DNA of 64,000 nt from positions 248,001 to 312,000 of the forward strand of contig JAEUSQ010000039.1 of NCBI GenBank assembly GCA_016788705.1, written 5' to 3'. Positions 8,386 to 48,298 of the stretch are shown here, in pieces. The position numbers and the translations under genes were made by a program. Numbering within the stretch: the first letter of the stretch is position 1; each line of letters opens with the position of its first letter. Below the pieces are notes generated by a model, which was given only the letters and a program-made list of their open reading frames with translations, made no database searches and was not told the origin of the DNA. The DNA is from Bacteroidetes Order II. bacterium. Its GTDB lineage: Bacteria > Bacteroidota > Rhodothermia > Rhodothermales > UBA2364.

Positions 8386-8480
8386 AGGGGTTCATAGATT
8401 AAACGCGAAGCAAATAGTTTCCCTTTTACTATATGTTGGCCAAAATTTAAGGAGAACTCAAAATAGTCAACTTTCTGGGC

Positions 8481-8512
8481 GGTCATTGAGCGCAGTCGAG
8501 CCGAGTGAAGCG
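8481..8512. repeat. Possible dispersed intergenic repeat (REP-like)
   Basis: The 217-nt gap between the start of ppk1 and the end of dnaG contains a GC-rich stretch (gtcattgagcgcagtcgagc, continuing ccgagtgaagcgg) that stands out from its AT-rich surroundings. The core resembles a short intergenic repeat I recall as common in Bacteroidota genomes (cattgagcgcagtcga). Only one copy was noticed in this window, so the repeat status rests on recall. The rest of the gap holds no gene that I can support. Confidence 0.35.
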
Positions 8513-8602
8513 GCACACGAAGTAAATGCTCATTTTTACAACGTATTTGAGGACGAAAAATAAATTTCGGGCTTTATTCTAAAAAATGGCTAACATATAG
8601 TT

Positions 8603-27249: not shown

Positions 27250-30200
27250 ATGTTAAGTCGGTTTTTTTCTCTTTTCGGATTGCAACTTATTGCAACATTG
27301 GCCAGTGCATTATACGGCCAGCAAGCCCACATTGAGCGCTTGTCTCAAGATGCAAATCAGGCCATCTTCCGGATTCATACCTCTTGGAAAAGCGAAGTAA
27401 ATCCAGAAAACCTGAAGGCAAAAACGGCCGAACAAATCCTTATAGCGCTTACCGATGGCTGGGCGATTGTTTCCGAACAAATATCCTTGCCCACACACGC
27501 TCTCCCTACCATAGAGGTTTCGGGAACGCGCTTTGAAACCATATCGGTACAAAATATTGCACACAAAACCTTATTTGAAGGCTATGTAAACGATTTGGCC
27601 AGTATTGGACAACTGGGGATCGAAAGAAAAAAACCTACGGCCACCCTCACGGCCAATCTTCTTTCCTACGACAAGGAACAGGGGCTTTTATACCGCTACA
27701 CCGAGTACCTTATTACGGTGCGCTTCGGCAAAAACGATGTCTTATCCAAAAAGGAAACTTGTAGCAACGCCCATGTGGCAACAACCAAAAGTGTGCTCGC
27801 ACAAGGGCGCTGGTTCCGCTTTCCCGTCACCGAAGAAGGACTTTATAAAATTGATGCCGCTTATTTACAAGGCTTGGGCGTAACGGGAACCATAGACTGG
27901 ACCAAAGTACAAATATATGGGAATGGGGGTAAGATGTTACCAGCCAAAAATTGCGACCCAAGGCCCGGAGACCTTACGCCTATATCCGTATCCGTCTTGT
28001 CTGATGGCCTTGTCTTTTATGGAAATGGGCCCAAAGGCTGGATTTACAATGCCGATCAAAACCTTTGGGAGCACTTTTCGCACGATTTTAGCAATGAAAA
28101 CATTTACTTCATCCGTGTGGATGAGACCGCTCCCACTCTTGTAAAGGCAGCCCTTGCACCCAACCAGAACAATCCGGTTACCCTCACCCAAACAACTGGT
28201 CGGTGGTTCAAAGAAGAAGACAAGATAAACATTGGCGGCGACTCTGGATCGGGTTTAGACTGGTTAGGGCAAGAAGTACTGGGCGGCGGTAGCGTTACCG
28301 TTGTGGATCAGGTCTTTGATGGCCTCGCAAGTGGAACCGTACAATACCGTGCCCGAATTGCAGCGCGCGCAAATCCAGGTGCGCAAGTTTCAGTAATTTC
28401 GGGCAACAACACCCTCCACCAATTTACCAGTAGAATTGTGGACTTAAACCAAAGTTTAGGAGTTAAAGCGTCTGAGGAGTCTTTCTCCTTCACCCATACT
28501 GCTGTTACAGGAAGTAAACAAACCATTCAATTTCGATTAGCGAAAACAGACAATGATCCCCGGTTTTGGATGGATTGGATTGCGGCATTTTATCCGCAAG
28601 ACCTGGTTGCAGCCAACCAGTACCTCCGCTTTGCCACCCCAACAGGGGAAAAAGGAGAAATAATTTTTGCTTTGTCCGGTTTTGCTTCCACGCCCACTGT
28701 TTGGGATATTACAGACGGTAAAGATACCCGCCAATTGCCCGTCTCGGAATCCGGTGGCAAATATTTGGTTAGGATGAATATTGCCGACACGCCAAGGGAA
28801 CTGGTGGCTTTTGTACCCACAGCCATCACCTACAAAAAACCTGCAACCGGAAGTGCCGTTGCCAACCAAAACCTGCATGGTATAACCACCATTCCAGCTT
28901 TTGTAATAGTCACCCCAACCGAATTTAAAAGTCAAGCCGAAAACCTGGCCCAATACCGTCGGAGCCAAGGAATTACTACCGAAGTGGTAGAAATTCACCA
29001 AATAATAAACGAGTTTTCAGGTGGCGTAATGGACATGCGGGCGATGCGCGACTACTTCAAGTTTTTGTACGACAAAGATACCCAAGACGTTTTTAAATAT
29101 GTCTTGCTTTTTGGAGATGGACATTTTGATTACCGCAACATTAATGGTACTACCAATACGCTTAAAAATTGGATTCCAGTGTACCAAACGGATGAATCAT
29201 TCGATGAAATAACATCGTTCACTTCTGATGATTATTTTGGACTATTAGATGATCAAGAAGGCGAATGGCGATGGCTTTTTGATTCAAGTTCTTCTTTTGA
29301 AAGAATGGATATTGGTATTGGTCGGTTTGTGGTACAAAGTACAGCACAAGCAGCAGGGGTGATCCAAAAAATAAAGCATTATGAAAACCCAAAAAATCTA
29401 GGCGCATGGAGAACCCGTTTTACCTTTATTGCAGATGATGAAATTGCCGGGTCTCGCCAGCCTGAATCAGATTTACACACCCAGAATGCCGATATGATTG
29501 CTCGGATGTTGGAAGACATAGCACCAGACTTTAACCTACATAAAATTTATGCCATGTCTTATAATCCTGTTACAACCGTAAACGGACGACGCGTACCGGA
29601 GGCTAAAGACGAAATTTTCCGCGCCTTTAACGAGGGAACTTTGGTATGGAATTACAGTGGGCACGGGGGTTATGAAGCCTTGGCGGATGAAAAATTGGTT
29701 TTGCTAGAGGACCTCAATGAATTGGCCAACCTTGATACTTTACCGATCATTGTGACGGCTACATGTTCTTTCGGACACTGGGACTACGCCGATAAACAAA
29801 GTGGCGCCGAGGTTGCATTTCTAAATGCAGACGGAGGAGCAATTGCAGTCTTTACAACCGTGCGTCCTGTGTACACTACAAGTTCCTTAGATTCCCTCAA
29901 CCCTGGACTGAACCGACAACTGACGATTCAGATGGTAACCCGCGAACCGAATGGCCTCCCCCAACGCTTTGGAGATGTCTTACGCAAAACCAAAAATACA
30001 ACAGCGGGCTCGCAAGATAATAACCGGAAATTCAATTTATTTGGGGACCCTACGATGCGTGTAGGGTTGCCCACCCTTAAAACCGTTGTTTCAACAATTA
30101 ATGAAAAACCGCTTACCGATAACCTCCAGATTAAAGCCTTAGATAAAGTGGTAGTAAAAGGTGAAGTTGTACAACAAAACGGTCAACGGGCCACTGATTT

Positions 30201-31185
30201 CTCCGGTAAAGTGGACCTAATGGTGTATGATGCACCGCGCCAAGTTACGCTCCGAGACGCACAATATTTACCAGGTGGACAATATAAAGTTTACCGCGAT
30301 CTTATTTTCAGAGGACGCGCAAGTGTTAAAAATGGAGAATATACCCTTACTTTTGTCGCTCCCAAAGACATATCGTATAGCAATACCAATGGACGTATTT
30401 CGTTGTATGCGGCTGGAGCACAAACAGACGCAATTGGACATAGCTTACGTATCGTAATTGGCGGCACAGCCACAAATCCGATCAAAGACTTAAAAGGGCC
30501 GGAAGTTCAGCTTTTTTTGAATGACACCACGTTTGTTTCCGGTGGTATCACCCATAAAAAACCACGATTGATTGCCAAATTATTCGACGAAAATGGCCTC
30601 AATACCGTTGGGACAGGAATTGGCCATGAGTTACTGCTGGTGATCAATGGAGATGAACAAAATGCCCGCAACCTGAGTGAGTTCTTTGTAGGAAATGAAA
30701 ATTCTTACCAGCGCGGAATGGTGTCTTATGCCTTACCCGAATTGGCTCCCGGCACACACACCCTCACATTGAAGGCATGGGATGTCTCTAACAACTCTAG
30801 TTTGGCAACTTTAGACTTTGTGGTGGCCGATGAGCAACAGCTGGAAATTCGGAATCTGGCCAATTATCCGAATCCAACCATGGGACCCACCCGTTTTGTT
30901 CTGGAACACAACCAAATTCCGGGGCGTACCGCCCGAGCAGAAATCAAAATATTCTCGCTCAGTGGCCGCTTAATCCGAACCATTGGCACAGACGAACTCC
31001 TACCCGGCGGTGTTCTAACCGGAAGCACCTTGCAATACCAATGGGATGGAAAAGATGAAGATGGGGATGCACCTGCTATGGGTGTGTATCTCTATAAAGC
31101 CAAGATAGAAATCACCGATGAAACCAGCGAAATCCCCACCAAGCAAACTGCGGAACTGATTGAAAAAATGGCCATTATTCGCTAA
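27250..31185 (+). CDS. porU: Type IX secretion system sortase PorU (C25 gingipain-like)
   Basis: A 1311-residue surface-associated protease. The signal peptide is at residues 1 to about 23 (ASALYGQQA). The C25 gingipain-type catalytic domain occupies roughly residues 545-945, with the catalytic pair visible as H805 in SGHGGYEALADE and C839 in VTATCSFGHWD, and a conserved FGDPTMRVG near 935. After that come beta-sandwich domains and a C-terminal type A sorting/FlgD-like domain (NYPNPTMGPT, then IKIFSLSGRLIRTI and GVYLYKAK). PorU cleaves the C-terminal signal of T9SS cargo and attaches the cargo to A-LPS or an equivalent lipid in P. gingivalis. porV follows, as in many Bacteroidota. Confidence 0.93.
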   Translation: MLSRFFSLFGLQLIATLASALYGQQAHIERLSQDANQAIFRIHTSWKSEVNPENLKAKTAEQILIALTDGWAIVSEQISLPTHALPTIEVSGTRFETISVQNIAHKTLFEGYVNDLASIGQLGIERKKPTATLTANLLSYDKEQGLLYRYTEYLITVRFGKNDVLSKKETCSNAHVATTKSVLAQGRWFRFPVTEEGLYKIDAAYLQGLGVTGTIDWTKVQIYGNGGKMLPAKNCDPRPGDLTPISVSVLSDGLVFYGNGPKGWIYNADQNLWEHFSHDFSNENIYFIRVDETAPTLVKAALAPNQNNPVTLTQTTGRWFKEEDKINIGGDSGSGLDWLGQEVLGGGSVTVVDQVFDGLASGTVQYRARIAARANPGAQVSVISGNNTLHQFTSRIVDLNQSLGVKASEESFSFTHTAVTGSKQTIQFRLAKTDNDPRFWMDWIAAFYPQDLVAANQYLRFATPTGEKGEIIFALSGFASTPTVWDITDGKDTRQLPVSESGGKYLVRMNIADTPRELVAFVPTAITYKKPATGSAVANQNLHGITTIPAFVIVTPTEFKSQAENLAQYRRSQGITTEVVEIHQIINEFSGGVMDMRAMRDYFKFLYDKDTQDVFKYVLLFGDGHFDYRNINGTTNTLKNWIPVYQTDESFDEITSFTSDDYFGLLDDQEGEWRWLFDSSSSFERMDIGIGRFVVQSTAQAAGVIQKIKHYENPKNLGAWRTRFTFIADDEIAGSRQPESDLHTQNADMIARMLEDIAPDFNLHKIYAMSYNPVTTVNGRRVPEAKDEIFRAFNEGTLVWNYSGHGGYEALADEKLVLLEDLNELANLDTLPIIVTATCSFGHWDYADKQSGAEVAFLNADGGAIAVFTTVRPVYTTSSLDSLNPGLNRQLTIQMVTREPNGLPQRFGDVLRKTKNTTAGSQDNNRKFNLFGDPTMRVGLPTLKTVVSTINEKPLTDNLQIKALDKVVVKGEVVQQNGQRATDFSGKVDLMVYDAPRQVTLRDAQYLPGGQYKVYRDLIFRGRASVKNGEYTLTFVAPKDISYSNTNGRISLYAAGAQTDAIGHSLRIVIGGTATNPIKDLKGPEVQLFLNDTTFVSGGITHKKPRLIAKLFDENGLNTVGTGIGHELLLVINGDEQNARNLSEFFVGNENSYQRGMVSYALPELAPGTHTLTLKAWDVSNNSSLATLDFVVADEQQLEIRNLANYPNPTMGPTRFVLEHNQIPGRTARAEIKIFSLSGRLIRTIGTDELLPGGVLTGSTLQYQWDGKDEDGDAPAMGVYLYKAKIEITDETSEIPTKQTAELIEKMAIIR

Positions 31186-31261: not shown

Positions 31262-31291
31262 AAATTTAATCCTTAAAACATTTAATTGTCT

Positions 31292-32416
31292 ATGATCAGA
31301 AAATCCCTGCTCGCACTCTTCGTTTTGTTTTACACTTCGGGTGTTTTTGCGCAAAACAATGCTGCGGTCGTTTTCTTACAAATAGAACCAGACGCCCGTT
31401 TTTCTGGAATGGGAAATGCTGGCAGCGCAGTAGCCGATAACTCCAGTGCCGTTTTTTGGAACCCTGCCGGACTAGCCTCCCAAAAAAATACAGAATTTAG
31501 TTTGACCCACTCAAACTGGTTGCCCAAACTAAGTAGCGATTTGTTCTATGAATATCTTACTGGAAAATATCATGTTGAGGGCTTGGGGACCTTCGGCGCC
31601 CATGTTACGTTCCTCAACCTTGGTGAAAGTGAACGCCGCGACGAATCCAACAACCTGATTGATACTTTCCGCTCATACGATGCCGCTGCTGGGGTTTCAT
31701 TCGGATTTCCGGTGAATGAACGTCTTTCGATAGGAACAGGTGCACGTATCATCTATTCCAATCTGGATAGCGGCGGTGGTAGTGTCGGAACCCAGAAGAC
31801 ACAGGCCGGGATATCGGCGGGTGTGGATATGGGACTACTCTACAAAGCACGTCCAATAAATTTGGGCGGCATCAAGACTTCGCTCTCTGCTGGATTTAAC
31901 CTTGCCAATATGGGGCCAACCATCCAGTATTCTGATAAAGGGCAAAGCGACCCTATCCCGACCAATATTCGCCTTGGGGTAGCCAGCCGTTTCGACATTG
32001 ACAACTACAACTCCATTACCTTGGTGGGGGATGCCACCAAATTGTTGGTTCATTCCGAAAAGAACGCAGATACGGGTAACTTCGAAGCTGATCCATTTTA
32101 CAAGGCCATTTTTAGCTCATGGAAGCCCCTCACTGTAAATATTGCACCACAAGGGCAGCCGGAAGTATTTAAGACCCTTAGCATTGCGAACCAAATGACA
32201 TGGGCCGCTGGAATGGAATACTGGTACCGCAAATTCTTCGCCATTCGTGCTGGGTATTTTTACGAACATCCGGATAACGGAAACCGGAACTTCCTTACAC
32301 TTGGCGCGGGAATTCGCCAAAGTATTATTGGTGTTGATTTTTCCTACGTGATTTCTTTACAGGAAAATGGCCCCAACTCCGATACCCCCCGTTTCTCCAT
32401 CATCCTGAATTTATAA
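31292..32416 (+). CDS. porV: Type IX secretion outer-membrane protein PorV
   Basis: A 374-residue FadL-like beta-barrel of the PorV family. A signal peptide (residues 1 to about 18, cleavage near VFAQ) is followed by the conserved PorV N-terminus: FLQIEPDARFSGMGNAGSAVADNSSAVFWNPAGLA. Alternating hydrophobic strands continue to the terminal RFSIILNL. PorV shuttles T9SS cargo from the Sov/SprA translocon to the PorU attachment complex. It follows porU by 106 nt. The start MIRKSL was chosen because a TTG two codons upstream has no advantage. Confidence 0.9.
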   Translation: MIRKSLLALFVLFYTSGVFAQNNAAVVFLQIEPDARFSGMGNAGSAVADNSSAVFWNPAGLASQKNTEFSLTHSNWLPKLSSDLFYEYLTGKYHVEGLGTFGAHVTFLNLGESERRDESNNLIDTFRSYDAAAGVSFGFPVNERLSIGTGARIIYSNLDSGGGSVGTQKTQAGISAGVDMGLLYKARPINLGGIKTSLSAGFNLANMGPTIQYSDKGQSDPIPTNIRLGVASRFDIDNYNSITLVGDATKLLVHSEKNADTGNFEADPFYKAIFSSWKPLTVNIAPQGQPEVFKTLSIANQMTWAAGMEYWYRKFFAIRAGYFYEHPDNGNRNFLTLGAGIRQSIIGVDFSYVISLQENGPNSDTPRFSIILNL

Positions 32417-32505
32417 TCCCATAAAGAGGTCTCTATGATCTCTGGGATAAACCGAATGGTTATGGGGAGCGTGCCATCGTGCGTTCCCCTTTTTTTAAGA
32501 CCTCC

Positions 32506-35097
32506 ATGAAGTTGTATAAGCGCCTTTTTTTACCCCTCATTTTTGGCTTTTGGAGCCTCGGAGCCTCCCAGCAAATTATTGCCCAAACCTTGCGTAATCC
32601 GGCTGCAGACCTTTATCATGTGGTCGCGCTTCGTGTCGAATTTCAACCAGACACCACTCGTTTTACGACAGGTGATGGAACATTTTCCGACAAACTATGG
32701 AAGGGATTGGTGCCCAAAATAGATCCACTACCTCATGATGCAGGTTATTTCCAGGCGCATTTAACGTTTTTAGAAAATTATATCGCAAGGGTTTCGGATG
32801 GAAAAACCAGCCTTAAGACACATCTAATTCCAGAAATTGTACGAGTCTCTAAGCAAATGGGTGCTTATGCACCAACGGGCAAAACATCCGACTCGGAGGC
32901 CGAAAGACAAAAATTGGCCGCTCTGGTAAAAGAAGCTTGGCAACTTGCGGATGTTCAAAGCAGTTTCGACATCACAGGGATGGACCCCAAACGCACCCTG
33001 TTTCTACTCTTCCATGCAGGCGCCGGACGCGATATTGAACTCGTTGGCACCACCTTGCTAAAAACACCGGAAGACCTACCTTCTCTTTTTTTCAACCAGC
33101 CAGCCCTCGACAAACTAACCGGCGGTAACATCCGCTTTAAAGGCTTTGAGGTGAACCATACCGCTATCCTGCCAGAAACAGAAACCCGTTTGGGATATGA
33201 TAGTTTTGCCCAAAAAAACTTTCTCGTAGAAGTTTCGATTAATGGACTCCTTGCGGCTTCGTTTCTAAACTATTTGGGGGTTCCCGATTTGTTTGACACC
33301 GTTACTGGCAAAACAGCCATCGGTTCTTTTTGTGTGATGGACGGTGAAGGTATTTTTGCCTATAATGGCCTTTTTCCGCCCGAACCTTCTGCATGGGTAA
33401 AATACTATGTAGGCTGGACAGAACCCCGCCTCCTTCTGCCGGAATACGCGAAGCCGCAAGAAGTGGTTTTAGAACAAGCAGGGGCCGCCACTACTTCTGA
33501 CGTCATCAAAATTCCGTTGTCCCATACCGAATATTATTTGGTTGAAAATCGTCAACGCGATGCAGAAGGGGATGGCATTCGACTCCAAATTCGGAGACCG
33601 GATGGTCAGGTTATTACACAAGTTTTTACCAACCACGACCAAACCTTTACCAGAACAGATCAGTCAGGAATTTCAAGTGGAACGGTTGTGGGCGTGGACA
33701 ATTACGACTGGGCTTTACCGGGTGGTGTGGACCGTGCCGGACATGATCGCATGGGCGGCATTTTGGTCTGGCATATAGACGAAACGGTCTTACGTGCCAA
33801 ATTGGCGGATAACCGAGTGAATGTGGACGCTCAGCAACGAGGGGTTGATTTGGAGGAAGCAGACGGTGCACAAGACATTGGGGTCGCCTCTTTCCCTTGT
33901 AGCGACGAAGGAGATAACAATATACTTCGCGGCAGCTACGACGATTTTTGGTTTTTGAACAATCCCGTAAATTGTGTGATTGATGCTGCCGCAAAACCAA
34001 TTGGTCAATACAGGAATGAACTTGGTCCAAGCACTTTCCCCAATACCAATACCAATTCCGGCGCCAAGACAGGGGTTCAGCTGTTTGACTTTTCGGCAAC
34101 GGGCGCCCAAATGGGCTTTAAGGTCAGCCGGAAGAAGGTACCTACTTATCTGGAGAACAGGATATTACCCAATTCCGTTTCGCTCAAAACAACCCAATTG
34201 ACCTCGGCACCTGTAAAAGCCATGCTAAATGGCCAGACATGGACGCTAACGCCCCAGATGGATACCAAACGTTATACCTGGATGAAGGACAATTCAACCG
34301 GAAAAACGTTTGATCCCGCGCAGTACTTGTCAGGAACCACAACGATCAATGGATTCCCTATTCTGACGAACATTGGCCCCCAAGAATCTCTGGTGGCACT
34401 CACCACCGTAGATAAGTACTTACTTGGTTTCAATACCGAAGGCGCCATGGCTGAGGGCTTCCCTATTGTACTGCCCAGTTCCTCCATCCACCAACCATTA
34501 GTCATTCGGTTCAAGGCTCAACAGAAAGGGACTGTCATTATTGCGGGTACCGACGGCAACCTGTATGGTTTTGATTTAGACCGAGGCGGTAAACCACATC
34601 CCGATTTTCCCCTTGCTGCGGGTGGCACGTTTTCACATCATCCAAAAGCAGACCTTGAAGGAATTTATATCAAGAATGGTACAACAGACGGCCAATTTTG
34701 GCGTTGGGATACAGGATACATTTCTTCAATTTTATGGGGTGAGTTGTTTTATGATGCACAAAACAGTAATACCATCACACTTACAAGTATGTCACTCCCC
34801 GCTTTTGAAGAACTGCTTATCTCGAAGGAAACATATAATTGGCCCAATCCTGTCCGAAAAGGCACTACACACTTGCGTCTTGCTTGCACAGAGACCTGTG
34901 ACGTAAGTATTCTTATCACCGATTTGGCAGGACAAAAGATCGCTGTTTTTGATTTGAAAAACATCCCCGCACAAATACCATACGAAACAAACTGGTCGGC
35001 CTCTGTTCCAAATGGGGTGTATTTGGCAAAGGTTAAAGCCAGCAGTACCAATAGAACCGAGTATAAAATCATTCAAATTGCAGTGGTAAAACAATAA
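32506..35097 (+). CDS. T9SS cargo with M6-like (immune inhibitor A-like) fold lacking the HExxH zinc motif
   Basis: An 863-residue secreted protein. It starts with a signal peptide (cleavage near IIAQ). Its central region resembles M6-type metallopeptidase-like proteins found in the Bacteroidota/Chlorobi group: LYHVVALRVEFQPD near the start, LGVPDLFDTVTG and SFCVMDGEG in the position of the usual GLPDLYD and WDLMG blocks, and GGILVWHIDE later. At residues 251-255, where HExxH should precede LG(V/L)PDL, the sequence is A-S-F-L-N, so the zinc site is absent. Residues about 785-863 form a type A sorting domain (NWPNPVRKGTT, then ILITDLAGQKIAVFD and NGVYLAKV). Probably a non-catalytic surface protein. 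The first paralog of the next family starts 5 nt downstream. Confidence 0.7.
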   Translation: MKLYKRLFLPLIFGFWSLGASQQIIAQTLRNPAADLYHVVALRVEFQPDTTRFTTGDGTFSDKLWKGLVPKIDPLPHDAGYFQAHLTFLENYIARVSDGKTSLKTHLIPEIVRVSKQMGAYAPTGKTSDSEAERQKLAALVKEAWQLADVQSSFDITGMDPKRTLFLLFHAGAGRDIELVGTTLLKTPEDLPSLFFNQPALDKLTGGNIRFKGFEVNHTAILPETETRLGYDSFAQKNFLVEVSINGLLAASFLNYLGVPDLFDTVTGKTAIGSFCVMDGEGIFAYNGLFPPEPSAWVKYYVGWTEPRLLLPEYAKPQEVVLEQAGAATTSDVIKIPLSHTEYYLVENRQRDAEGDGIRLQIRRPDGQVITQVFTNHDQTFTRTDQSGISSGTVVGVDNYDWALPGGVDRAGHDRMGGILVWHIDETVLRAKLADNRVNVDAQQRGVDLEEADGAQDIGVASFPCSDEGDNNILRGSYDDFWFLNNPVNCVIDAAAKPIGQYRNELGPSTFPNTNTNSGAKTGVQLFDFSATGAQMGFKVSRKKVPTYLENRILPNSVSLKTTQLTSAPVKAMLNGQTWTLTPQMDTKRYTWMKDNSTGKTFDPAQYLSGTTTINGFPILTNIGPQESLVALTTVDKYLLGFNTEGAMAEGFPIVLPSSSIHQPLVIRFKAQQKGTVIIAGTDGNLYGFDLDRGGKPHPDFPLAAGGTFSHHPKADLEGIYIKNGTTDGQFWRWDTGYISSILWGELFYDAQNSNTITLTSMSLPAFEELLISKETYNWPNPVRKGTTHLRLACTETCDVSILITDLAGQKIAVFDLKNIPAQIPYETNWSASVPNGVYLAKVKASSTNRTEYKIIQIAVVKQ

Positions 35098-35102
35098 TAC
35101 CT

Positions 35103-35687
35103 ATGAAGTACTTCCTCTTTTTTTTACTTTGCTTTTTGACCTTTCCCATACAAGCCCAAAAAAATCCCGATCTGGTTGTAGAATTGGCCCAGATTGCAGA
35201 ACCATTACCCTTGATATCTTCGAAGAAACAGCTTACGACTGCCTATATGGCTTCTTTACTCAATACAGCACTCCCGGTTGTTGCCTATCAAGTGCTGAGC
35301 CAAAAAATAGACTCCGACGCCCTGATCTGGATTCCTCTATATGCTATGAGTGTGGGACCATCCGGCGGGCATCTTTATACAAGAGATTGGAAGCGTGTAG
35401 GCATTGGTTCGGCCAGCCGTCTCGTAGGTACTGCTATGGTCATTTCCACTGCCTTCCTATGTTTTGAGTCAGGTTGTACGGGTCATGAAAAAACGAGGCA
35501 AACCTTTATACAGATAATAGGAGGCGTCATGTACATCGGTGGATTGGCCTACAGCCTCGCCACCACTCCAAAATCTGTAATATCTTATAATCTCCGTCAT
35601 GAGCAAAAAGTCAAATTGGCGTTGGCACTTTTACCGGATAATACGCAAAAGCCTCATCTTGGCATCTCTATGTATGTTAGTTTTTAA
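35103..35687 (+). CDS. Exported/membrane protein of unnamed family (GPSGG motif), copy 1
   Basis: A 194-residue protein with a signal peptide (MKYFLFFLLCFLTFPIQAQ). The body shows several membrane-like helices and the motif YAMSVGPSGGHLYTRDWKR (about residues 79-97), followed by a conserved Gly-Ser-x-x-Arg helix and a Cys pair in CFESGC. It ends in SMYVSF. Clearly homologous to the two genes that follow. The motif resembles GPSxGxxY signatures I have seen in unnamed Bacteroidota membrane proteins; no function is known. It lies 5 nt after the M6-like gene, so these two are probably co-transcribed. Confidence 0.65.
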   Translation: MKYFLFFLLCFLTFPIQAQKNPDLVVELAQIAEPLPLISSKKQLTTAYMASLLNTALPVVAYQVLSQKIDSDALIWIPLYAMSVGPSGGHLYTRDWKRVGIGSASRLVGTAMVISTAFLCFESGCTGHEKTRQTFIQIIGGVMYIGGLAYSLATTPKSVISYNLRHEQKVKLALALLPDNTQKPHLGISMYVSF

Positions 35688-35816
35688 AATTATTTTGCCA
35701 AAATAAGGATTTAATTTTTTGTTTCAACTGTAATAAATCTATATCGCCTATAAATTATTTGGTAATCAATGGATCACGTTATTTATTTCTATTTTCCTCA
35801 ATAAAAACGCTGCCCA

Positions 35817-36440
35817 ATGAAAGTCATTATTTACCTTATTCCCTTTCTGACAACCCTTTTATATGGGCAAGTATCTAATTTAGCAAAACCCCTTTTGCCC
35901 AATCAATCGCTGTTGTATCAAGATCAAACCGACACCACAAGTAATGGTTTTGACAAAAAAAACTACCGTACAGCCCTAAGGTGGTCTATCGCCAATTCAG
36001 TCATTCCTTTTGTTTCTGCGCCACTTGCACAGGCATTGCTTCGTTCCGACAAGGCACTATTACTCAGTTTTTATGGACTTGTTATCGGTCCATCTGGAGG
36101 CCACCTTTACACACAAGACTGGAAGCGCACCCTCGTCGGGTCGGGTATTCGGTATGCAGGTGGTCGGATACTGCTTAGAGGCCTTTTTGCTTGCTGGGAA
36201 CCCGGCTGTACAAAATATGAAGAAAAAGCATCCCAAAGGAGAGGGATCGTTGGATTGCTTATTTATGAAGTAGGCATTGGTTACACCTTATACACGCTTA
36301 CGAAATCGGTGGAAACTTTTAACACGCGCTACACCAAACGCAATGCTATCGCTGTCTTACCTATCCTGATAGAAAAGCCCTATTTTTTGACGGGTATGCG
36401 AGAATACATGCCAGCACTAAACCTGCAAATTGGATTTTAA
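35817..36440 (+). CDS. Exported/membrane protein of unnamed family (GPSGG motif), copy 2
   Basis: A 207-residue paralog of the preceding gene. Signal peptide (residues 1 to about 17), the motif YGLVIGPSGGHLYTQDWKR (about 90-108), a G-S-G-I-R helix, and the Cys pair in CWEPGC are all shared with copy 1. The C-terminus is LNLQIGF. A 129-nt AT-rich gap separates it from copy 1, containing a perfect 7-bp hairpin ttattttgccaaaataa (35691-35707), so it may start a new transcript. Copy 3 follows after 2 nt. Confidence 0.65.
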   Translation: MKVIIYLIPFLTTLLYGQVSNLAKPLLPNQSLLYQDQTDTTSNGFDKKNYRTALRWSIANSVIPFVSAPLAQALLRSDKALLLSFYGLVIGPSGGHLYTQDWKRTLVGSGIRYAGGRILLRGLFACWEPGCTKYEEKASQRRGIVGLLIYEVGIGYTLYTLTKSVETFNTRYTKRNAIAVLPILIEKPYFLTGMREYMPALNLQIGF

Positions 36441-36442
36441 CT

Positions 36443-37018
36443 ATGATGAAATACTTTATAATCGGTTTATTCAATCCCTTAGCACTCTGGGCGCAACCTG
36501 TTTCACAAAATCAATCGGCTGAAATAAAGCAGTTATGGCGCCAAGTTGCTATCCATACAATGGTTCCAACAGGGGTTGGAAGCGCCTTTTTATTTAAGGG
36601 TTATGAAAGGGATCATCATTTAATTGAAAACATGGGATTGGCCGTATCTTTGTATGGCTTGCTCATTGGCCCCTCTGTTGGACAAATTAGGGTTCAAGAC
36701 CTTCGTGCTGCTGCAACATTTACTGTAGGCCGTATCGGAGTGGGCGCAGCCTCTTTAGCCCTTTCGCACCGATACCAAAAAAATGGACTTTGTAACAAGC
36801 CGACAAGCGACTTTGATGACCCTTGCGATTTCATTGGGTGGACTGGCGCAGCTTCTGTTACGGTTTTAGCACTTTGGGATGTCTTGTCTGCCACACGAAA
36901 ACTACAAAATGGACAAATACCCCAGCCACGTGGCCGAGAAAGGCTCAGTTTAAGTCCTCGATTACTTTCCACCGGTTCAAAATTAGTACCGGGCACAACG
37001 ATACAACTACGATTCTAA
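36443..37018 (+). CDS. Exported/membrane protein of unnamed family (GPSxG motif), copy 3, diverged
   Basis: A 191-residue third paralog. It keeps the signal peptide, YGLLIGPSVGQIRVQD at about residues 71-86 and the following glycine-rich helix. It has lost the HLYTxDWKR half of the motif (IRVQDLRAA instead). The Cys pair is more widely spaced (C-N-K-P-T-S-D-F-D-D-P-C). The C-terminus is TIQLRF. Its TAA stop overlaps the ATG of the next gene (TAATG), which implies translational coupling. Function unknown. Confidence 0.62.
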   Translation: MMKYFIIGLFNPLALWAQPVSQNQSAEIKQLWRQVAIHTMVPTGVGSAFLFKGYERDHHLIENMGLAVSLYGLLIGPSVGQIRVQDLRAAATFTVGRIGVGAASLALSHRYQKNGLCNKPTSDFDDPCDFIGWTGAASVTVLALWDVLSATRKLQNGQIPQPRGRERLSLSPRLLSTGSKLVPGTTIQLRF

Positions 37019-40000
37019 TGACCCGTATCCGGCTAATCCACATTCTCTCCAAAAAACCAGACAACTTCTGGACTATTGTTGTCCTTTTGTGCGCTTTTTG
37101 TCTCCCTGTACATGCGCAAGACTGGCCTTCCGAACAGACCTTTAACCGCGCTGGCCTCCGGTGGCACACCTTAGAAACCGAGCATTTTCGCATACATTTC
37201 CATACCGACGCAAACGGAAAAGGGAGTACACGAACGGCTGCGGTAGTTGCCCGCATCGCAGAGGAAATCTATGGCCCCATCACCCACTTATACCAACACA
37301 CACCAGACAGTAAAGTGGATTTTGTGCTGAAAGACTATGAGGATTATTCCAATGGCGCGGCCTATTTTTTCGACAATAAAATTGAGATTTGGGCGCCCGC
37401 CCTCGAATCGCCGTTAAGGGGGGATCATCATTGGCTTCGCAATGTCATCACCCACGAATTTACACATATTGTGCAGGTTCAGAAGACCATGCGAACGACA
37501 CGAAAGACACCCATTTTCTTTTTTCAATATCTTGGGTACGAAAAAGTGCGACGTCCTGATGTCTTATATGGCTATCCCAATATTGTGGCTTCTTATCCCG
37601 TCCCTGTGATGAACAATCCGGCTTGGTTTGCCGAGGGTACCGCCCAATTTCAGCGTTCAGGCTTACATTATGAAACCTGGGACAGCCACCGCGACATGCT
37701 CCTACGTACCCAGATTTTAGGGAATAAAGCGTTTTCCTTGTCCGAGATGGGTTCTTTCCTTTCCAAAAACAGCCTTGGCCGCGAGAGTGTCTATAATCAT
37801 GGTTTTGCTTTTACACAATACTTGGCCAACCGATTTGGCGAAGACGTGCTACGGCTTATTTCGGAAGCATTGGCCAAACACTGGAATATGGAAAAAGCAT
37901 TGGCGTCCGCGACGGGTATTCCGGGCAAAAAACTTCATGCAGAATGGATGTCAGCCATGAAAACGGCTTATGATACCTCCACCATCGAGATCCGTCAAAA
38001 AATGGTTGACGGGCACACGATAGAAGACGGTGGCTTTTTCAATTTCCACCCCCGATGGTCGCCCGATGGCAAAAAAGTGGCTTACCTCTCTAATAAGGGA
38101 TATGATTTTAGTGCAACCGCCCTCTATATCCTGGATTTGGAGACCAACCTAACGACGGCTTTTCCGGTAGAAGGGCTGCAAAACCGATATTTTGAACAAA
38201 CATGCTCGCATGGACACAAATTGCAAGCGGGTATCTCCGGTGCTTTTGACTGGTTTCCTGATGGTAAACGCCTGGTTTTGGCCAAAGTGAGGGATACCGC
38301 TCAAGGTAATTTATTCTCTGATTTATATGAATTGGATATTGCTTCAAAAAAAACAAAACGACTCACTCGTAACCTCCGTGCAGCCGGCCCCAGCCTGAAT
38401 AGTAATGGCACTGAATTGGTTTTTATCCAGCAACAAGACGGAACGACCAATCTAATACGACGTGCGGAAACGGGCCTCATACAACCTGTCACCCAATTTT
38501 CGGGCGGTGAACAGGTCTTGGATGCCCACTGGTCTGGTGAATGGATTTATTTCACCATGAGCCAAGGAGGAAATCCTGACCTCTTCCGTATCAAACCGGA
38601 TGGATCTTCACTTACCAAGGTTTATGAATCCCCTCACGATGACCGAAATGTCAGGGTTTCGGAAGATGATTTGTACTTTTCGTCTGATGCAAGCGGTATT
38701 TTCAACCTATATCGTCTTTCACTTAAGGAAAAAAATGCCAAACCCGTTCCTATAACCAATGTCTTGGGCGGAGCTTTTATGCCGGACGTACATGCTTCTG
38801 GGCAACTCCTTTTTGCCCGATACGAAGCCGAAGGCTATAAAATTGCCCGTATTGTACAACCCGAAGTGGTTTCTGTACCAATGTACCAAACTCCAGCAAC
38901 CCTTGCAAAAAAATCAGTCTATCAAGATGCCGATTGGGCAACCCTCAACGCCGCAAACGATCGTGCGATTCCAGCCTTGGTCCCGGGCACGCCTGAGGTC
39001 ACTTCCTATGAACCAACATTTAGCCGCATTGGGTTCATTCCTGTCCTTCGCATGGATGATTACAATAGCCCAGCCCGATCCATAGATGCTACCCTACAAC
39101 GCTCTGGAACCGAAGAGTTGCTACGCACCACCAAGATTGGGGTTATGATGACTTCTCGTGAAGTATTGGAAGGTGTAAACCTTTATGCCAGTGCCTTGGT
39201 TGCCCCAGCCTCCATAGAGGCCGAAACCGTCCGAGATTTTCTGGTTCCAAGCCGCCTCCGACGATTGGAACGGGATATACAAATGCAATTAGAATACAAC
39301 CGTGGGGTTTCTTTCCTCCCCAAAGCCTGGGGGCCTAAACTTTCGTTAGATGTTTTTAATATTCAACGGATTGTTCCAAATGGGCTTACCATCGAAGAAT
39401 TCCCTTGTACGGCTTGTTTTCCAGAAAAAAGCTATGCAGACCTCACTTATACCCTCTGGGAAGTAGCACTGAATGCCCGTTCAAAGTTTTCGCGCAATTT
39501 TTCGGCACTCGCTGGTTATAAAATTAGTCCTTTTAATGTTCGAACCGAATCCTTCTACTCCCGCGAATACCAACAGACCATTGGCGCATCCTCCAGTCGG
39601 TACTTTATGGGACGCGGCCTAACAGTCCAAGGTTTTTTTGAGGCCCGAAAACCAAGCCAGCATGACCATTTCTTGCCCGAAGGAATCCGAGCCTCACTCA
39701 CGTTTGAACACCAACCTGGTCAATTATTAGACCGTTACGACATTCAAAATAATACGTTGGTTCCTATTTATAAGTCCTACAAAATCAATCGCTTAACCTT
39801 TGATACTAAATATGGCCTTGCGTTGGGCAAAATAAACCGATCTACACATGGCCTCGAAGCACGCCTCCGAGTAAGTGGGATCGTAGGAAAAGAAGTGGAT
39901 GATTTTTTCAACGACTACGTAGGAGGTTTAATCGGGGCACGCGGGTACCCCTTCTATGCGGTGGGTGGAAACCAAGCAGCATGGGCACAAGTATCCTATC

Positions 40001-40332
40001 AATTCCCCATTATTTCCCGATTTACCAATCAATGGGGCTTCCTATCACCTGATCGGCTCTATGGCCGGGTTTATGCAGATGCAGCCATGGGATGGTCGGA
40101 TAACCGCCCAGCATGGAACCAAATTCGAAAAGATGCCGGCGCAGAATTAAGGTTAAGTTTGGGTTCTTTTTACCTATTTCCAACGGCACTCTTTGTCGGT
40201 ACGACCTACGGCTTCAACCAATTTGATTATCAACTCAAAAATCGGCTCACCACCGTGGAAGGGAATACATTTGTAACCTATGGGCGGCAATGGCTTTGGC
40301 ATTTTGGCGTCCTTTTTAGCTTCGACTTATGA
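37018..40332 (+). CDS. Peptidase MA-like domain, TolB-like beta-propeller and Omp85-like barrel in one protein
   Basis: A 1104-residue envelope protein, started at the ATG that overlaps the previous stop; a longer upstream frame runs through the paralog gene and is discounted. Signal peptide cleavage is near PVHAQ. Residues about 40-330 form a gluzincin peptidase: THEFTH gives H146, E147 and H150, and E206 in WFAEGTAQF is the likely third zinc ligand. Residues about 340-620 are WD40/TolB-like propeller repeats (FHPRWSPDGKKVAYLS, FDWFPDGKRLVLAK). The C-terminal third is beta-barrel-like with an Omp85-type block, GARGYPFYAVGGNQ, and ends FSFDL. It is likely anchored in the outer membrane with the protease in the periplasm or at the surface. 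Related proteins occur in Bacteroidota, usually unnamed. The next gene overlaps by 4 nt. Confidence 0.75.
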   Translation: MTRIRLIHILSKKPDNFWTIVVLLCAFCLPVHAQDWPSEQTFNRAGLRWHTLETEHFRIHFHTDANGKGSTRTAAVVARIAEEIYGPITHLYQHTPDSKVDFVLKDYEDYSNGAAYFFDNKIEIWAPALESPLRGDHHWLRNVITHEFTHIVQVQKTMRTTRKTPIFFFQYLGYEKVRRPDVLYGYPNIVASYPVPVMNNPAWFAEGTAQFQRSGLHYETWDSHRDMLLRTQILGNKAFSLSEMGSFLSKNSLGRESVYNHGFAFTQYLANRFGEDVLRLISEALAKHWNMEKALASATGIPGKKLHAEWMSAMKTAYDTSTIEIRQKMVDGHTIEDGGFFNFHPRWSPDGKKVAYLSNKGYDFSATALYILDLETNLTTAFPVEGLQNRYFEQTCSHGHKLQAGISGAFDWFPDGKRLVLAKVRDTAQGNLFSDLYELDIASKKTKRLTRNLRAAGPSLNSNGTELVFIQQQDGTTNLIRRAETGLIQPVTQFSGGEQVLDAHWSGEWIYFTMSQGGNPDLFRIKPDGSSLTKVYESPHDDRNVRVSEDDLYFSSDASGIFNLYRLSLKEKNAKPVPITNVLGGAFMPDVHASGQLLFARYEAEGYKIARIVQPEVVSVPMYQTPATLAKKSVYQDADWATLNAANDRAIPALVPGTPEVTSYEPTFSRIGFIPVLRMDDYNSPARSIDATLQRSGTEELLRTTKIGVMMTSREVLEGVNLYASALVAPASIEAETVRDFLVPSRLRRLERDIQMQLEYNRGVSFLPKAWGPKLSLDVFNIQRIVPNGLTIEEFPCTACFPEKSYADLTYTLWEVALNARSKFSRNFSALAGYKISPFNVRTESFYSREYQQTIGASSSRYFMGRGLTVQGFFEARKPSQHDHFLPEGIRASLTFEHQPGQLLDRYDIQNNTLVPIYKSYKINRLTFDTKYGLALGKINRSTHGLEARLRVSGIVGKEVDDFFNDYVGGLIGARGYPFYAVGGNQAAWAQVSYQFPIISRFTNQWGFLSPDRLYGRVYADAAMGWSDNRPAWNQIRKDAGAELRLSLGSFYLFPTALFVGTTYGFNQFDYQLKNRLTTVEGNTFVTYGRQWLWHFGVLFSFDL

Positions 40333-41240
40333 AATACTTGTCTTTCTTTTGCATCAACATTCTTTTTTTTACTCCTGTTTATGCCCAACATCGCGATCTA
40401 CAAACCGATTTGTTACAGAATCTACTTCCAGAGGTGGCTTATGTGTCTCCCACCCTTCTTATTCCCGCAGCTACACATAAGCCAAAACATGTAGCGATCG
40501 CTTTTTTGGCATCGGCGGTGGTTCCGGGAGCAGGTCAAGTTTACAATCGGCAATTTGTAAAATCTGGGGTGTTTTTTGGAGCAGAAATCACCTCGATTGT
40601 CCTCCAACAGAAATGGCAGCAAGAAGGAAATCAGCAATATGCGTTGGTCAAACAAACCGCACATCGGGGCTGGAGCATCATCCGATATGCCGAGTGGTTG
40701 AATAAATTTTCCGGGTATGCAGGACCTAAAATCCCCATTTCCTCTACGATTCGCCAAATAGACCTCACCAACCCGGCCAAATGGACCGACTCCGAGCGTC
40801 AAACCGTGCGGGAACTCTTCAATGCCGTACGAGCCGCCGAAGATCAGTCCAAAAACCCGAAAACGGGTGCTGCATTCTCTCATAAAATCCCCTTCTTTGG
40901 CGAACAACAATACTATGAACTGGTAGGTAAATATTATCAATATAGCCCCGGATGGCCCGATTACAACGGTGCGGACGATCCAGATGAGAAAGTGGAGGGG
41001 GTTTACGTGAATGCATCGGCTCAATTTTTAGCCTATGCCCAATCTCATGGGGCTTCGCAAGCCCAATTACGAAAAGCCTCACGTACCAGTACGTTGATTG
41101 TTTTAAATCATTTTATATCGGCTTTTGAAGCAGGTATCTCTGCACGCCTTCACAATCGTAAAATTTCTGCCACACCCGTTGCCATGTTTACCGATTCCGG
41201 AGACTGGGTACCCGCACTCACCATGTCTTTTAAGTGGTAA
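40329..41240 (+). CDS. DUF5683 family protein
   Basis: A 303-residue protein with a signal peptide (PVYAQ) and the DUF5683 core AIAFLASAVVPGAGQVYNRQFVKSG at about residues 56-80. The rest is helical with a second hydrophobic segment near the C-terminus (TLIVLNHFISAFEAGISA), where the family typically ends with a Tyr/Phe-rich strand. DUF5683 proteins are common in Bacteroidota and are presumed envelope proteins; no function is established. It overlaps the preceding giant protein gene by 4 nt, so both are likely made together. Confidence 0.78.
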   Translation: MKYLSFFCINILFFTPVYAQHRDLQTDLLQNLLPEVAYVSPTLLIPAATHKPKHVAIAFLASAVVPGAGQVYNRQFVKSGVFFGAEITSIVLQQKWQQEGNQQYALVKQTAHRGWSIIRYAEWLNKFSGYAGPKIPISSTIRQIDLTNPAKWTDSERQTVRELFNAVRAAEDQSKNPKTGAAFSHKIPFFGEQQYYELVGKYYQYSPGWPDYNGADDPDEKVEGVYVNASAQFLAYAQSHGASQAQLRKASRTSTLIVLNHFISAFEAGISARLHNRKISATPVAMFTDSGDWVPALTMSFKW

Positions 41241-41446: not shown

Positions 41447-42100
41447 ATGAAAACAAGCGTACCACTCTTCCTTCTTTTCATTTTGGTCGTGCCACTACAA
41501 GCACAATGGTACGAAGAAAAGGACGAAACACCAGGCCTCTCTTTTATTGGCGGAACAAGCAACAAGGTCATGTTTGACAACGAAGATGGGACTTTTTACA
41601 CTGATATGCGAGCTTTTCAAGCCGGAATTGCCAAGGCGACCTTTCGATTTCATGGACATGCACAAGCCAGCAAAATGCTACTCATCACCCATCAGACTGC
41701 AAAAGCACAATACCATGATGGGTACAAATCGCTCACCATGACCAATGCGGAAGCCCATTTTCTTGGCGCTCTTTCATTGGGTCATTTGATTTTTGCAGGT
41801 GTCGAAGGAGGTATTTATCTCGCTGTTCCACTTGTGGTTAATGGCGAAACAGTACGAACAAGTGTACCTGCTTTTAGTAAAGCATACGAACGTCCCTACT
41901 TTTATCAGGGATTTATTGGGGGTGGAACGGTTGGCCTAAAAGTGGGTGGGGTGATTGTTGCTGCACACGGAAGGGTTAATATACCCTTTATAAAGATTTA
42001 TAAACCCCAACCAGAAGTTGAAGACGGTACCAAGATCACTCCTCAACTCCTTAGGGCGGAAATGTTGCTGTTTTCCATTACGATTAAAGGACGAGAGTAA
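41447..42100 (+). CDS. Exported protein of unknown function, probable small outer-membrane barrel
   Basis: A 217-residue protein with a clear signal peptide (MKTSVPLFLLFILVVPLQAQ). The mature part is rich in alternating strands (ISFIGGTSN-like openings, HFLGALSLGHLIFAGVEGG, GFIGGGTVGLKVGGVIVAAHG) and ends with MLLFSITIKG, which suggests an outer-membrane barrel. No motif was recognised. A 206-nt gap separates it from the DUF5683 gene; that gap holds two imperfect hairpins but no gene. Convergent with the DUF72 gene, 12 nt away. Confidence 0.6.
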   Translation: MKTSVPLFLLFILVVPLQAQWYEEKDETPGLSFIGGTSNKVMFDNEDGTFYTDMRAFQAGIAKATFRFHGHAQASKMLLITHQTAKAQYHDGYKSLTMTNAEAHFLGALSLGHLIFAGVEGGIYLAVPLVVNGETVRTSVPAFSKAYERPYFYQGFIGGGTVGLKVGGVIVAAHGRVNIPFIKIYKPQPEVEDGTKITPQLLRAEMLLFSITIKGRE

Positions 42101-45979: not shown

Positions 45980-48298
45980 ATGAAACATATTCTTATGCGC
46001 ATTTTCGCTTTTCTTAAAAAGTGCCTTTTGCTATTAGGCCTTCTTACTCCCCATACTTTTGCACAAATTGGTTCATGGCAAGCCCATACTGCCATGCGGC
46101 AAATCAATGATCTTGCAGATGCAGGAACAGAAATCTGGGCAGCTACTCAAGGCGGGGTTTTTGGGTACAATGTCTCTACAGGTGAAATCCGGAGAATCAC
46201 AACCATAGAGGGCCTCCACGCCCTAAATCCGACGACCATTACATACGACGACCGCAGAAAAGCGCTGTGGCTTGGTTATGAAGACGGCGCATTAGACCGG
46301 TACGACCTTGCCAGCAAAAATGTACGTACCTTCAGAGACATTGCCCGTGCCACCCAATTCACCGATCGTTCCATTGGACGCATCAAAATACAAGGGGACT
46401 CTGTTTTGGTGGCCACAGCATTCGGTATGGTCATTTTTGATGCCCAGAAAAACGAAATACGTGATTCCTATACCCAATTTGGCAATCTTTCATCCGGCAT
46501 CAGGGTCTATGACATGATGGTTCATCCATTGCCCGATGGCAGAAATGGGTTTTGGATTGCCCTCGAGCGTGGAGTGGCCTATGCCCCAATGAGCAGTGTC
46601 AACCTTCGGGAGCCGCTTCAGTGGGTACTAGACCAACGCCTCCAAAATGTCACTAGTATAGGAAAATTAGGCTCAATCGTTTTTATTGGAACCAAAATGG
46701 ATGGTTACGCCTTAGGTGCGACGGAGTGGGAACGCCAAGGATTTATTACAGGAGAGGTTCGCAGAATCACCTATTCCGACGATAGCATGATAGTGACCAC
46801 CCCATTTTGGTTGGTAGTGGTACGTAAGAATGGGCAACGCACGCTGGTCAGTTACAGCGACTATTTTAATCTAGGCGCCGGAATTGCAATGGCTGACGGC
46901 TCCTTATGGAGCGGCGACCGGTCTGCGGGTCTTGCGCAGTTTTCTTCCATACCGCCTGCCGGTAGTACCAATGAAAAACCAACACGGGTTGTTATACCCA
47001 ATGGGCCTTATTGGCAACTCTTTGCTGATTTGGAAAGCGATGCACAAGGAAATATTTATGCATCGGCATTTGCAGATCTAAAAGGGACTGTATATAAATT
47101 ATCGTCCAATGCCATTTGGGAAACATATCCGAATACCGCTGTTCCCGACCTTAAAGGTAAGACATCCTTTGACCGCGTACACGTAGATGCTTTGGGAAAC
47201 ATTTGGACGGCCTCTTCGAGAATCGGCGTAGGCCTTCTTCAGATTCAGAAGAATGGTCAGACCACCCTATACAACGATACGAATAGCTCGCTAAGGGCGA
47301 TTCCGAATCTGCCCGGCGACGTCCGTGTCGCTGGGATGTCTTCCGAGAAGGACGGAACTTTGTGGCTTTCCAATTTCTTAACCACCCCACGTCTTCATGT
47401 AAGAACGCCCAATGGTCAGTGGACGGGACTGAATGAGTTTTATGATCAATCAGGACAACGGATTGAAGGGGACTTTACCCGTGTTTTTGTAGATTCTTTT
47501 GGCAAAAAATGGGTACTCCTCTTCTATGAGGGCGGTATAATGGTCATGGACACCAAAAATACCCCCGCCAATACTGCCGATGACAAAATTCGATATTGGA
47601 CGGGCAAACGTTCCGACGGCAAAGGACTGCCCTCTGCACAAGTGCGTGCAATTTGTGAAGACAAAAAAGGTGGTATCTGGATCGGCACGAGCCGAGGTCT
47701 TACGGTTTTTGTGTTTGGGAATCTTGCCACCGACTCCGACCCGAACTGGCCTTCACGGGATGGGGCCTATGTATTGCGCGAGGTATTCGTCAATGATATG
47801 GCTGTTGATGCCGCAAACCGTTTGTGGATTGCCACCACCGAGGGGGTCTGGGTAATGAATGCCGAGACCTATGAGGTACTGCACCATTATACCAAAGACA
47901 ACTCCCCACTTTTTACAGATAATATTTCTGCATTGGCCATAGACGACAATTCCGGACGCATTTACTTTGCAACCGATCTTGGTGTACTCAGTATCCAAAG
48001 TGATGCTGCTAAACCACAGGCCGTTTTGTCCGAACTGCGTATTCATCCCATACTTGCAAAAGCCGAGGGTGGCGTATTACCCAATATCTATATTGAAAAC
48101 CTCACCGATGAAAATGAAATCAGGATTCTTAATACCGCAGGGACCCACATCAAACAGTTCAATGGATATGGGGGACGTGTGGCCTGGAATGGTCGAGATG
48201 ATGCTGGTAACCTGGTTCCATCGGGGGTGTATTTTATCGTTGCACGAAACAATAACAGCGGTGAACGCACCATTGGTAAAGTAGCTATTGTGCGTTAA
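45980..48298 (+). CDS. porZ: PorZ-like beta-propeller protein of the type IX attachment complex
   Basis: A 772-residue exported protein. After a signal peptide (cleavage near TFAQ) it starts with the PorZ hallmark IGSWQAHTAMRQINDLADAG, followed by WAATQGGVFGYNVSTGE and repeated two-component-regulator-type propeller blades (IWIGTSRGLTVF, LWIATTEGVWVMN). A C-terminal type A sorting-like domain closes it (IRILNTAGTHIKQFNGYGG, then PSGVYFIVARN). PorZ sits on the surface with PorU, PorV and PorQ and, in P. gingivalis, presents A-LPS for cargo attachment. Length matches known PorZ. It lies 81 nt after ribH. Confidence 0.85.
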   Translation: MKHILMRIFAFLKKCLLLLGLLTPHTFAQIGSWQAHTAMRQINDLADAGTEIWAATQGGVFGYNVSTGEIRRITTIEGLHALNPTTITYDDRRKALWLGYEDGALDRYDLASKNVRTFRDIARATQFTDRSIGRIKIQGDSVLVATAFGMVIFDAQKNEIRDSYTQFGNLSSGIRVYDMMVHPLPDGRNGFWIALERGVAYAPMSSVNLREPLQWVLDQRLQNVTSIGKLGSIVFIGTKMDGYALGATEWERQGFITGEVRRITYSDDSMIVTTPFWLVVVRKNGQRTLVSYSDYFNLGAGIAMADGSLWSGDRSAGLAQFSSIPPAGSTNEKPTRVVIPNGPYWQLFADLESDAQGNIYASAFADLKGTVYKLSSNAIWETYPNTAVPDLKGKTSFDRVHVDALGNIWTASSRIGVGLLQIQKNGQTTLYNDTNSSLRAIPNLPGDVRVAGMSSEKDGTLWLSNFLTTPRLHVRTPNGQWTGLNEFYDQSGQRIEGDFTRVFVDSFGKKWVLLFYEGGIMVMDTKNTPANTADDKIRYWTGKRSDGKGLPSAQVRAICEDKKGGIWIGTSRGLTVFVFGNLATDSDPNWPSRDGAYVLREVFVNDMAVDAANRLWIATTEGVWVMNAETYEVLHHYTKDNSPLFTDNISALAIDDNSGRIYFATDLGVLSIQSDAAKPQAVLSELRIHPILAKAEGGVLPNIYIENLTDENEIRILNTAGTHIKQFNGYGGRVAWNGRDDAGNLVPSGVYFIVARNNNSGERTIGKVAIVR

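Follow-up and report, generated by a model that had tools for sequence, protein, structure and literature searches.

What is the function of a protein that joins a protease, a propeller and a barrel, and why is its gene found beside those of the type IX secretion system (T9SS)? A locus in Bacteroidetes Order II. bacterium, a member of the Rhodothermales, raises this question. We analysed a 64,000-nucleotide stretch of contig JAEUSQ010000039.1 (the window), in which this gene, here called PROT, is followed by a DUF5683 gene and preceded by three paralogs with a GPSGG motif (GP1, GP2 and GP3). An earlier note on this DNA had focused on the paralogs and had recognised no named system. The latter statement was half right, because it overlooked that T9SS genes flank the locus, with PorU, PorV and M6i upstream and PorZ downstream at 45980. 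The observation underlying the note holds, but the GPSGG genes were the wrong focus: PROT and DUF5683, with M6i and PorV, are the more interesting and far more widespread object. We propose, with a probability of roughly 40%, that PROT is an outer-membrane Omp85-like protease-barrel that works with the DUF5683 protein as an accessory of the T9SS, serving clients of the M6i/PorV type. The features of the window are as follows.

27250..31185, + strand: PorU, T9SS sortase (NCBIfam NF033707, 1030 bits, cut-off 420)
31286..32416, + strand: PorV, T9SS shuttle/outer-membrane protein (NCBIfam NF033710, 270 bits, cut-off 250)
32464..32489, + strand: putative terminator-like stem-loop in the PorV/M6i interval (11 bp stem, T7 tail)
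32506..35097, + strand: M6i, T9SS-dependent M6-like inactivated metalloprotease (NF052323, 747 bits, cut-off 600; TIGR04183 C-terminal)
35103..35687, + strand: GP1, GPSGG-motif exported helical protein, 194 aa
35817..36440, + strand: GP2, GPSGG-motif exported helical protein, 207 aa (model mean pLDDT 83)
36443..37018, + strand: GP3, diverged GPS-x-G copy, 191 aa
37018..40332, + strand: PROT, peptidase-MA-like gluzincin domain, TolB-like propeller and ~16-strand barrel
40329..41240, + strand: long-form DUF5683 protein (PF18935, 2.6e-7, 31.2 bits against a cut-off of 26.7; orthologue alignment)
45980..48298, + strand: PorZ, T9SS delivery protein for anionic lipopolysaccharide (A-LPS) (NF052228, 376 bits, cut-off 260)

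We investigated how frequently these genes co-occur in 247 evenly sampled Bacteroidota genomes. The genomes with a strong PROT orthologue and those with M6i were the same 94, with zero discordant genomes in the sample. The split between strong and weak PROT hits was a natural one, the weaker hits (~1e-30 to 1e-43) being many paralogs of the same architecture. The Fisher p-value for the PROT-M6i pairing, 1e-70, ignores shared ancestry and is overstated. The two genes lie within 3 kb of each other in 84 of the 94 genomes and are far apart or on different contigs in 10, some of which may reflect assembly breaks. A long DUF5683 gene is present in 93 of the 94, adjoins PROT in 86, and also occurs in four other genomes. 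These data show a strong conservation of the M6i/PROT/DUF5683 module. That PROT pairs so exactly with a single cargo protein, M6i, is our main reason for proposing a dedicated accessory module.

Gene order was surveyed at 28 Rhodothermales loci from 10 families, the window included. The conserved order is PorU-PorV-M6i-PROT-[TlpA-like thioredoxin]-DUF5683. DUF5683 comes after PROT at 27 of the 28 loci, the exception being a contig that ends first. PorU, PorV and M6i precede PROT at every locus whose contig extends that far, apart from genome G002, where PorU and M6i are on another contig. A membrane-anchored, TlpA/ResA-like thioredoxin is encoded between PROT and DUF5683 at 23 loci; the window's genus and one other (family f12 genus g34) lack the gene. 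A genome scan found further Rhodothermales contigs with this conserved gene order. Two contigs of the order carry unrelated genes after PROT in the usual place of the thioredoxin and DUF5683 (L152 13421-16232 and L161 13551-17980), which suggests an insertion or rearrangement.

The block extends well beyond the Rhodothermales. Elsewhere in the phylum, PorV, M6i, PROT and DUF5683 stand together at 17 of 20 loci, from 11 families; 16 of the 17 also have PorU, and one has an additional small gene before PROT. In candidate division KSB1, represented by two contigs, locus L154 reads PorV-M6i-PROT-DUF5683-DUF5683, and its M6i exceeds the family cut-off. We found no description of this block in the open-licence literature. 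In distant lineages alike, PROT, M6i and DUF5683 are found in the same genomes as T9SS genes and close to them, and we consider PROT and DUF5683 good candidate partners of the T9SS. Where genomes rearrange slowly, neighbouring genes can stay together, and these genomes share ancestry, so order might have been inherited with no joint function behind it. We regard this as very improbable, since M6i and PROT are jointly present or absent in 247 of 247 genomes, are non-adjacent in 10, and keep a common order in KSB1 as well.

PROT has a gluzincin domain (HEFTH at residues 146-150, E206), a TolB-like propeller (~330-618) and a barrel (672-1100) with an RGY motif. In the structural model (mean pLDDT 77, pTM 0.75), a protease-like domain at the N-terminus leads into a propeller, and ~16 strands follow from residue 672. 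HExxH and the third-ligand motif W-x-[AS]-E-G are present in 31 of 31 aligned PROT sequences, KSB1 included, which assigns the domain to the peptidase MA/gluzincin group. PF13485 scores 31.6 on the window's protease domain, slightly under its cut-off of 32.4, and is above the cut-off in KSB1. PD40 is found in 25 of 25 members, and the propeller aligns with TolB structures over 244 residues (Z ~26, root-mean-square deviation 2.6 A), so that sequence and fold agree. In Omp85 proteins, loop 6 carries an RGY motif between the 11th and 12th strands of a 16-strand barrel. The model places the RGY of PROT in the loop joining the 11th and 12th predicted strands, and an RGY-type loop is kept across every lineage compared, KSB1 included. 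Because HExxH, W-x-[AS]-E-G and this loop are kept in all lineages, the protease and the barrel both look constrained. Together, the model and the motif suggest that the barrel is Omp85-like. Genomes of the order bear several paralogs of the protease/propeller/barrel architecture, a single genome having as many as 8 matched stretches.

If the barrel is Omp85-like, on which side of the membrane would the protease lie? In the patatin-Omp85 protein PlpD (type Vd secretion), as in PROT, an N-terminal enzyme precedes a C-terminal Omp85-like barrel (PMC4104836). The barrel of PROT might likewise export its own metalloprotease and propeller to the surface, with M6i as a regulator or decoy and DUF5683 concerned only with assembly. 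M6i is a T9SS-exported inactive protease whose phyletic pattern is identical to that of PROT, which fits this explanation. However, PROT, known here from sequence and a model, has an enzyme of a different class and a propeller interposed between enzyme and barrel. That propeller is TolB-like, and the best-known members of the TolB family are periplasmic. A large folded region would also need to cross the membrane, and the sequence analysis gave no cleavage-site or translocation support. We consider a surface protease unlikely.

The closest described architecture to PROT is the WD40-Omp85 subfamily of the Omp85/TpsB superfamily, in which a TolB-like propeller is followed by a C-terminal barrel (PMC4104836). 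PROT differs in its extra N-terminal HExxH metalloprotease domain and in having a barrel with no Pfam match, and the word 'peptidase' does not appear in that paper. A likeness of WD40-Omp85 proteins to a fusion of BamA and BamB has been proposed (PMC4104836). PROT might, by analogy, unite BamA-like and BamB-like parts with a protease for quality control and aid the insertion of PorV or other barrels, its T9SS link being indirect, through PorV as client. The retention of the PorV neighbour where PorU is missing (L211) fits such an outer-membrane biogenesis locus. However, the exact co-occurrence partner of PROT is a cargo protein, M6i, and not a barrel. PROT-like paralogs also occur in genomes that lack M6i, and the architecture must therefore serve other purposes as well. 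We judge a biogenesis role doubtful, if somewhat more probable than surface display.

We return to PROT as a T9SS accessory. The module would consist of M6i, PROT and DUF5683 beside PorU-PorV, plus, in most Rhodothermales, the membrane-anchored TlpA-like thioredoxin. A 16-strand Omp85-like barrel would seat PROT in the outer membrane, and the periplasm is the most likely place for its gluzincin protease and its TolB-like propeller. These domains may bind PorV-branch T9SS clients and then trim or quality-control them, the foremost client perhaps being M6i, with its type A signal, or PorV itself. The DUF5683 protein, exported and mainly helical, could be a dedicated partner or anchor of PROT, and the two may form a physical complex. 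In the window's genus GP1-3, also exported, helical and of similar general layout, may supplement this partner.

Several observations weigh against this interpretation. The co-occurrence counts come from genomes that are not phylogenetically independent. Seven sampled genomes have PROT, M6i and DUF5683 and no PorU hit, and the module would therefore be independent of the sortase; the one of these we inspected, L211, retains PorV. Many PorU-positive genomes lack the trio, which is therefore not a core part of the T9SS: a core component would be present wherever the T9SS is, and PROT and M6i occur in 94 of the 247 genomes, 93 of them with DUF5683, versus 164 for PorU. The thioredoxin link is limited to certain lineages. 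Because a profile search with the barrel found no sequence match in the PDB either, Omp85 membership rests on the model and the motif. Finally, a Cys-x-x-C motif of PROT is absent outside the window's class. The thioredoxin may be a redox partner for this motif, but Cys-x-x-C also occurs in loci of the class with no adjacent thioredoxin.

The DUF5683 protein of the window contains a PGAGQVYN motif, a SHKIPFFGEQQYYELVGKY block and C-terminal strands. The gene passes the Pfam cut-off for PF18935, and long and short forms of the family align (hhalign 99.8%). The form found at this locus differs in its length (~300-345 aa) and in an extra conserved SHxLPxFxxQQYYELIGKY block. In KSB1, two tandem DUF5683-type genes follow PROT (L154 13064-14728 and L155 3119-4796), a doubling reminiscent of how helical proteins have multiplied locally in the window. 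In the open-licence literature DUF5683 is mentioned in one paper, which is unrelated.

Where does this leave the three GPSGG genes? Much of what the earlier note had said of them stands. They do encode adjacent homologous proteins with signal-peptide-like N-termini: GP1 and GP2 share 36% identity over 151 aa (BLASTP, E=1e-32). The third copy is indeed diverged, matching GP2 pairwise at 4e-5 over 27 aa around GPS-x-G, and its kinship is backed independently by other family members (the L005 protein against GP3, 2e-5). The motif sequences are YAMSVGPSGGHLYTRDWKR in GP1, YGLVIGPSGGHLYTQDWKR in GP2 and YGLLIGPSVGQIRVQDLRA in GP3. The reported Cys pair is present in all three (C-x4-C in GP1 and GP2, C-x11-C in GP3) and is not conserved across most of the wider family. 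The reported junctions are exact: GP2 and GP3 are 2 nt apart, GP3 and PROT overlap by 1 nt (TAATG), and PROT and DUF5683 overlap by 4 nt (40329-40332).

No Pfam, NCBIfam or PHROG family was assigned to GP1-3. In the GP2 model, the signal peptide is followed by four helices and, at the C-terminus, a beta-hairpin. Against the PDB the model gave zero Foldseek hits with E<=0.001 and VIA Z scores <=7.0, which are typical of helical bundles. Membrane insertion of GP1-3 is only plausible, because their hydropathy peaks are moderate (1.3-1.6). The PSGGHLY motif of the GP proteins aligns weakly on the PGAGQVYN motif of DUF5683 (hhalign probabilities 12% and 24%). Against short DUF5683 proteins, the best alignment of the GP profile is another short stretch, and the motif pairing was not reproduced. 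GP1-3, which gave no Pfam hit, are possibly distant DUF5683-like proteins.

Profile searches found the GPSGG family in 21 of 114 genomes of the order and in 14 of the 247 Bacteroidota genomes, every one of these in the window's class. A GP gene stands beside PROT only in the window's genus, in 3 genomes: the window has GP1, GP2 and GP3, G001 has GP1 and GP3, and G002 has one GP1/GP2-like gene and GP3. At other sites the homologues are solo or in tandem, and only close relatives share their flanking genes. In a tree, GP1 and GP2 of the locus group together, with a solo copy from their genus as neighbour, and GP3 is on a long separate branch. One solo gene (G000:C63:33202-33690; L011, L068) encodes an N-terminal extension of ~60 aa (YRITFTKGGFLLGTVLEE...), which is also found in G001:C16. 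In G002, unrelated rhodanese-like and permease-like genes lie immediately upstream of the GP genes. In L226, a gene for a 219-aa lipoprotein-like protein (8391-9050) sits between M6i and PROT, a position matching that of the GP genes of the window.

These distributions bear on the idea, favoured by the earlier note, that GP1-3 are the functional heart of the locus, joined in a complex to PROT and DUF5683. The tight GP2-GP3-PROT-DUF5683 spacing and the signal-peptide style common to the GP proteins and their partners are consistent with it. So is G002, which keeps GP-GP3-PROT-DUF5683 together on G002:C21 (L043) despite having PorU and M6i on G002:C1. However, 91 of the 94 PROT-positive sampled genomes have no GP gene at the locus, and GP homologues are also found singly or in tandem with no PROT neighbour. 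We consider a GP-centred complex improbable. As a conserved core the paralogs were rejected: 18 of the 21 GP-bearing genomes of the order have no GP gene here, none was found outside the class, and their neighbours do not recur. Homologues scattered without the protease or DUF5683 were the very outcome that the earlier note had named as telling against its proposal. The coupling it described is strongly supported for PROT and DUF5683, which are adjacent in 86 of the 93 genomes having both and in another phylum too, and is not supported for the GPSGG paralogs, which adjoin the module in 3 genomes of one genus. GP1-3 are a genus-level, optional addition to the locus. Nor is it supported that they replace the thioredoxin: family f12 genus g34 lacks the thioredoxin as well and has no GP genes there, and the Cys pair is missing from most relatives of the GP proteins.

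In the window itself, PorU, PorV and PorZ all exceed their NCBIfam cut-offs, and a T9SS attachment module is present. PorZ, ~13.5 kb downstream of PorV, lies in the same region and outside the conserved block; the attachment genes form a loose cluster. The GP1 gene starts 5 nt after the M6i gene, which is itself preceded by PorV and PorU, and GP1 and GP2 are 129 nt apart. The stem-loop at 32464-32489 suggests, without proof, that M6i and the genes after it form a separate transcript; the region has about as many terminator-like sites as shuffled sequence does on average, and this stem is the longest among them. For M6i, an ATG start at 32506 is likelier than GTG 32479, because the latter falls inside the stem. 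PROT starts at ATG 37018, and an alternative, longer TTG start at 36823 falls within GP3. GP1-3, PROT and the DUF5683 protein all have a signal-peptide-like N-terminus with Q right after the likely cleavage site, as the Bacteroidetes Q-rule (PMC5837995) leads one to expect. A 217-aa exported protein of no family is encoded after DUF5683 (41447-42100); it is kept in G001 (76%) and was not seen in G002.

How does the locus compare with the known T9SS? Its PorU-PorV(-PorZ) genes are those of the established system, and the trio differs in that only some PorU-positive genomes have it. PorV serves as shuttle for T9SS cargo of type A (PMC12618676), and M6i carries a type A sorting domain (TIGR04183) at its C-terminus. 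An M6i cargo gene beside the shuttle gene PorV recalls type B cargo, which is encoded adjacent to a cognate PorP/SprF-like shuttle (PMC12618676). However, M6i has a type A signal, the shuttle is the general one, and further genes accompany the pair. In the accessible portions of the open-licence T9SS literature, PROT, DUF5683 and the GP proteins are not named as parts of the system, nor did we find PROT or DUF5683 in the component lists there.

If our proposal is correct, a large share of type-IX-secreting Bacteroidota would use an outer-membrane protease-barrel together with a helical partner. The exact pairing with a named cargo, M6i, would provide a direct and testable client, and the genes of the block are present in a cultured genus, for example Roseithermus (L111). 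The proposal would also give a cellular context to this DUF5683 subfamily and to the propeller-Omp85 architecture.

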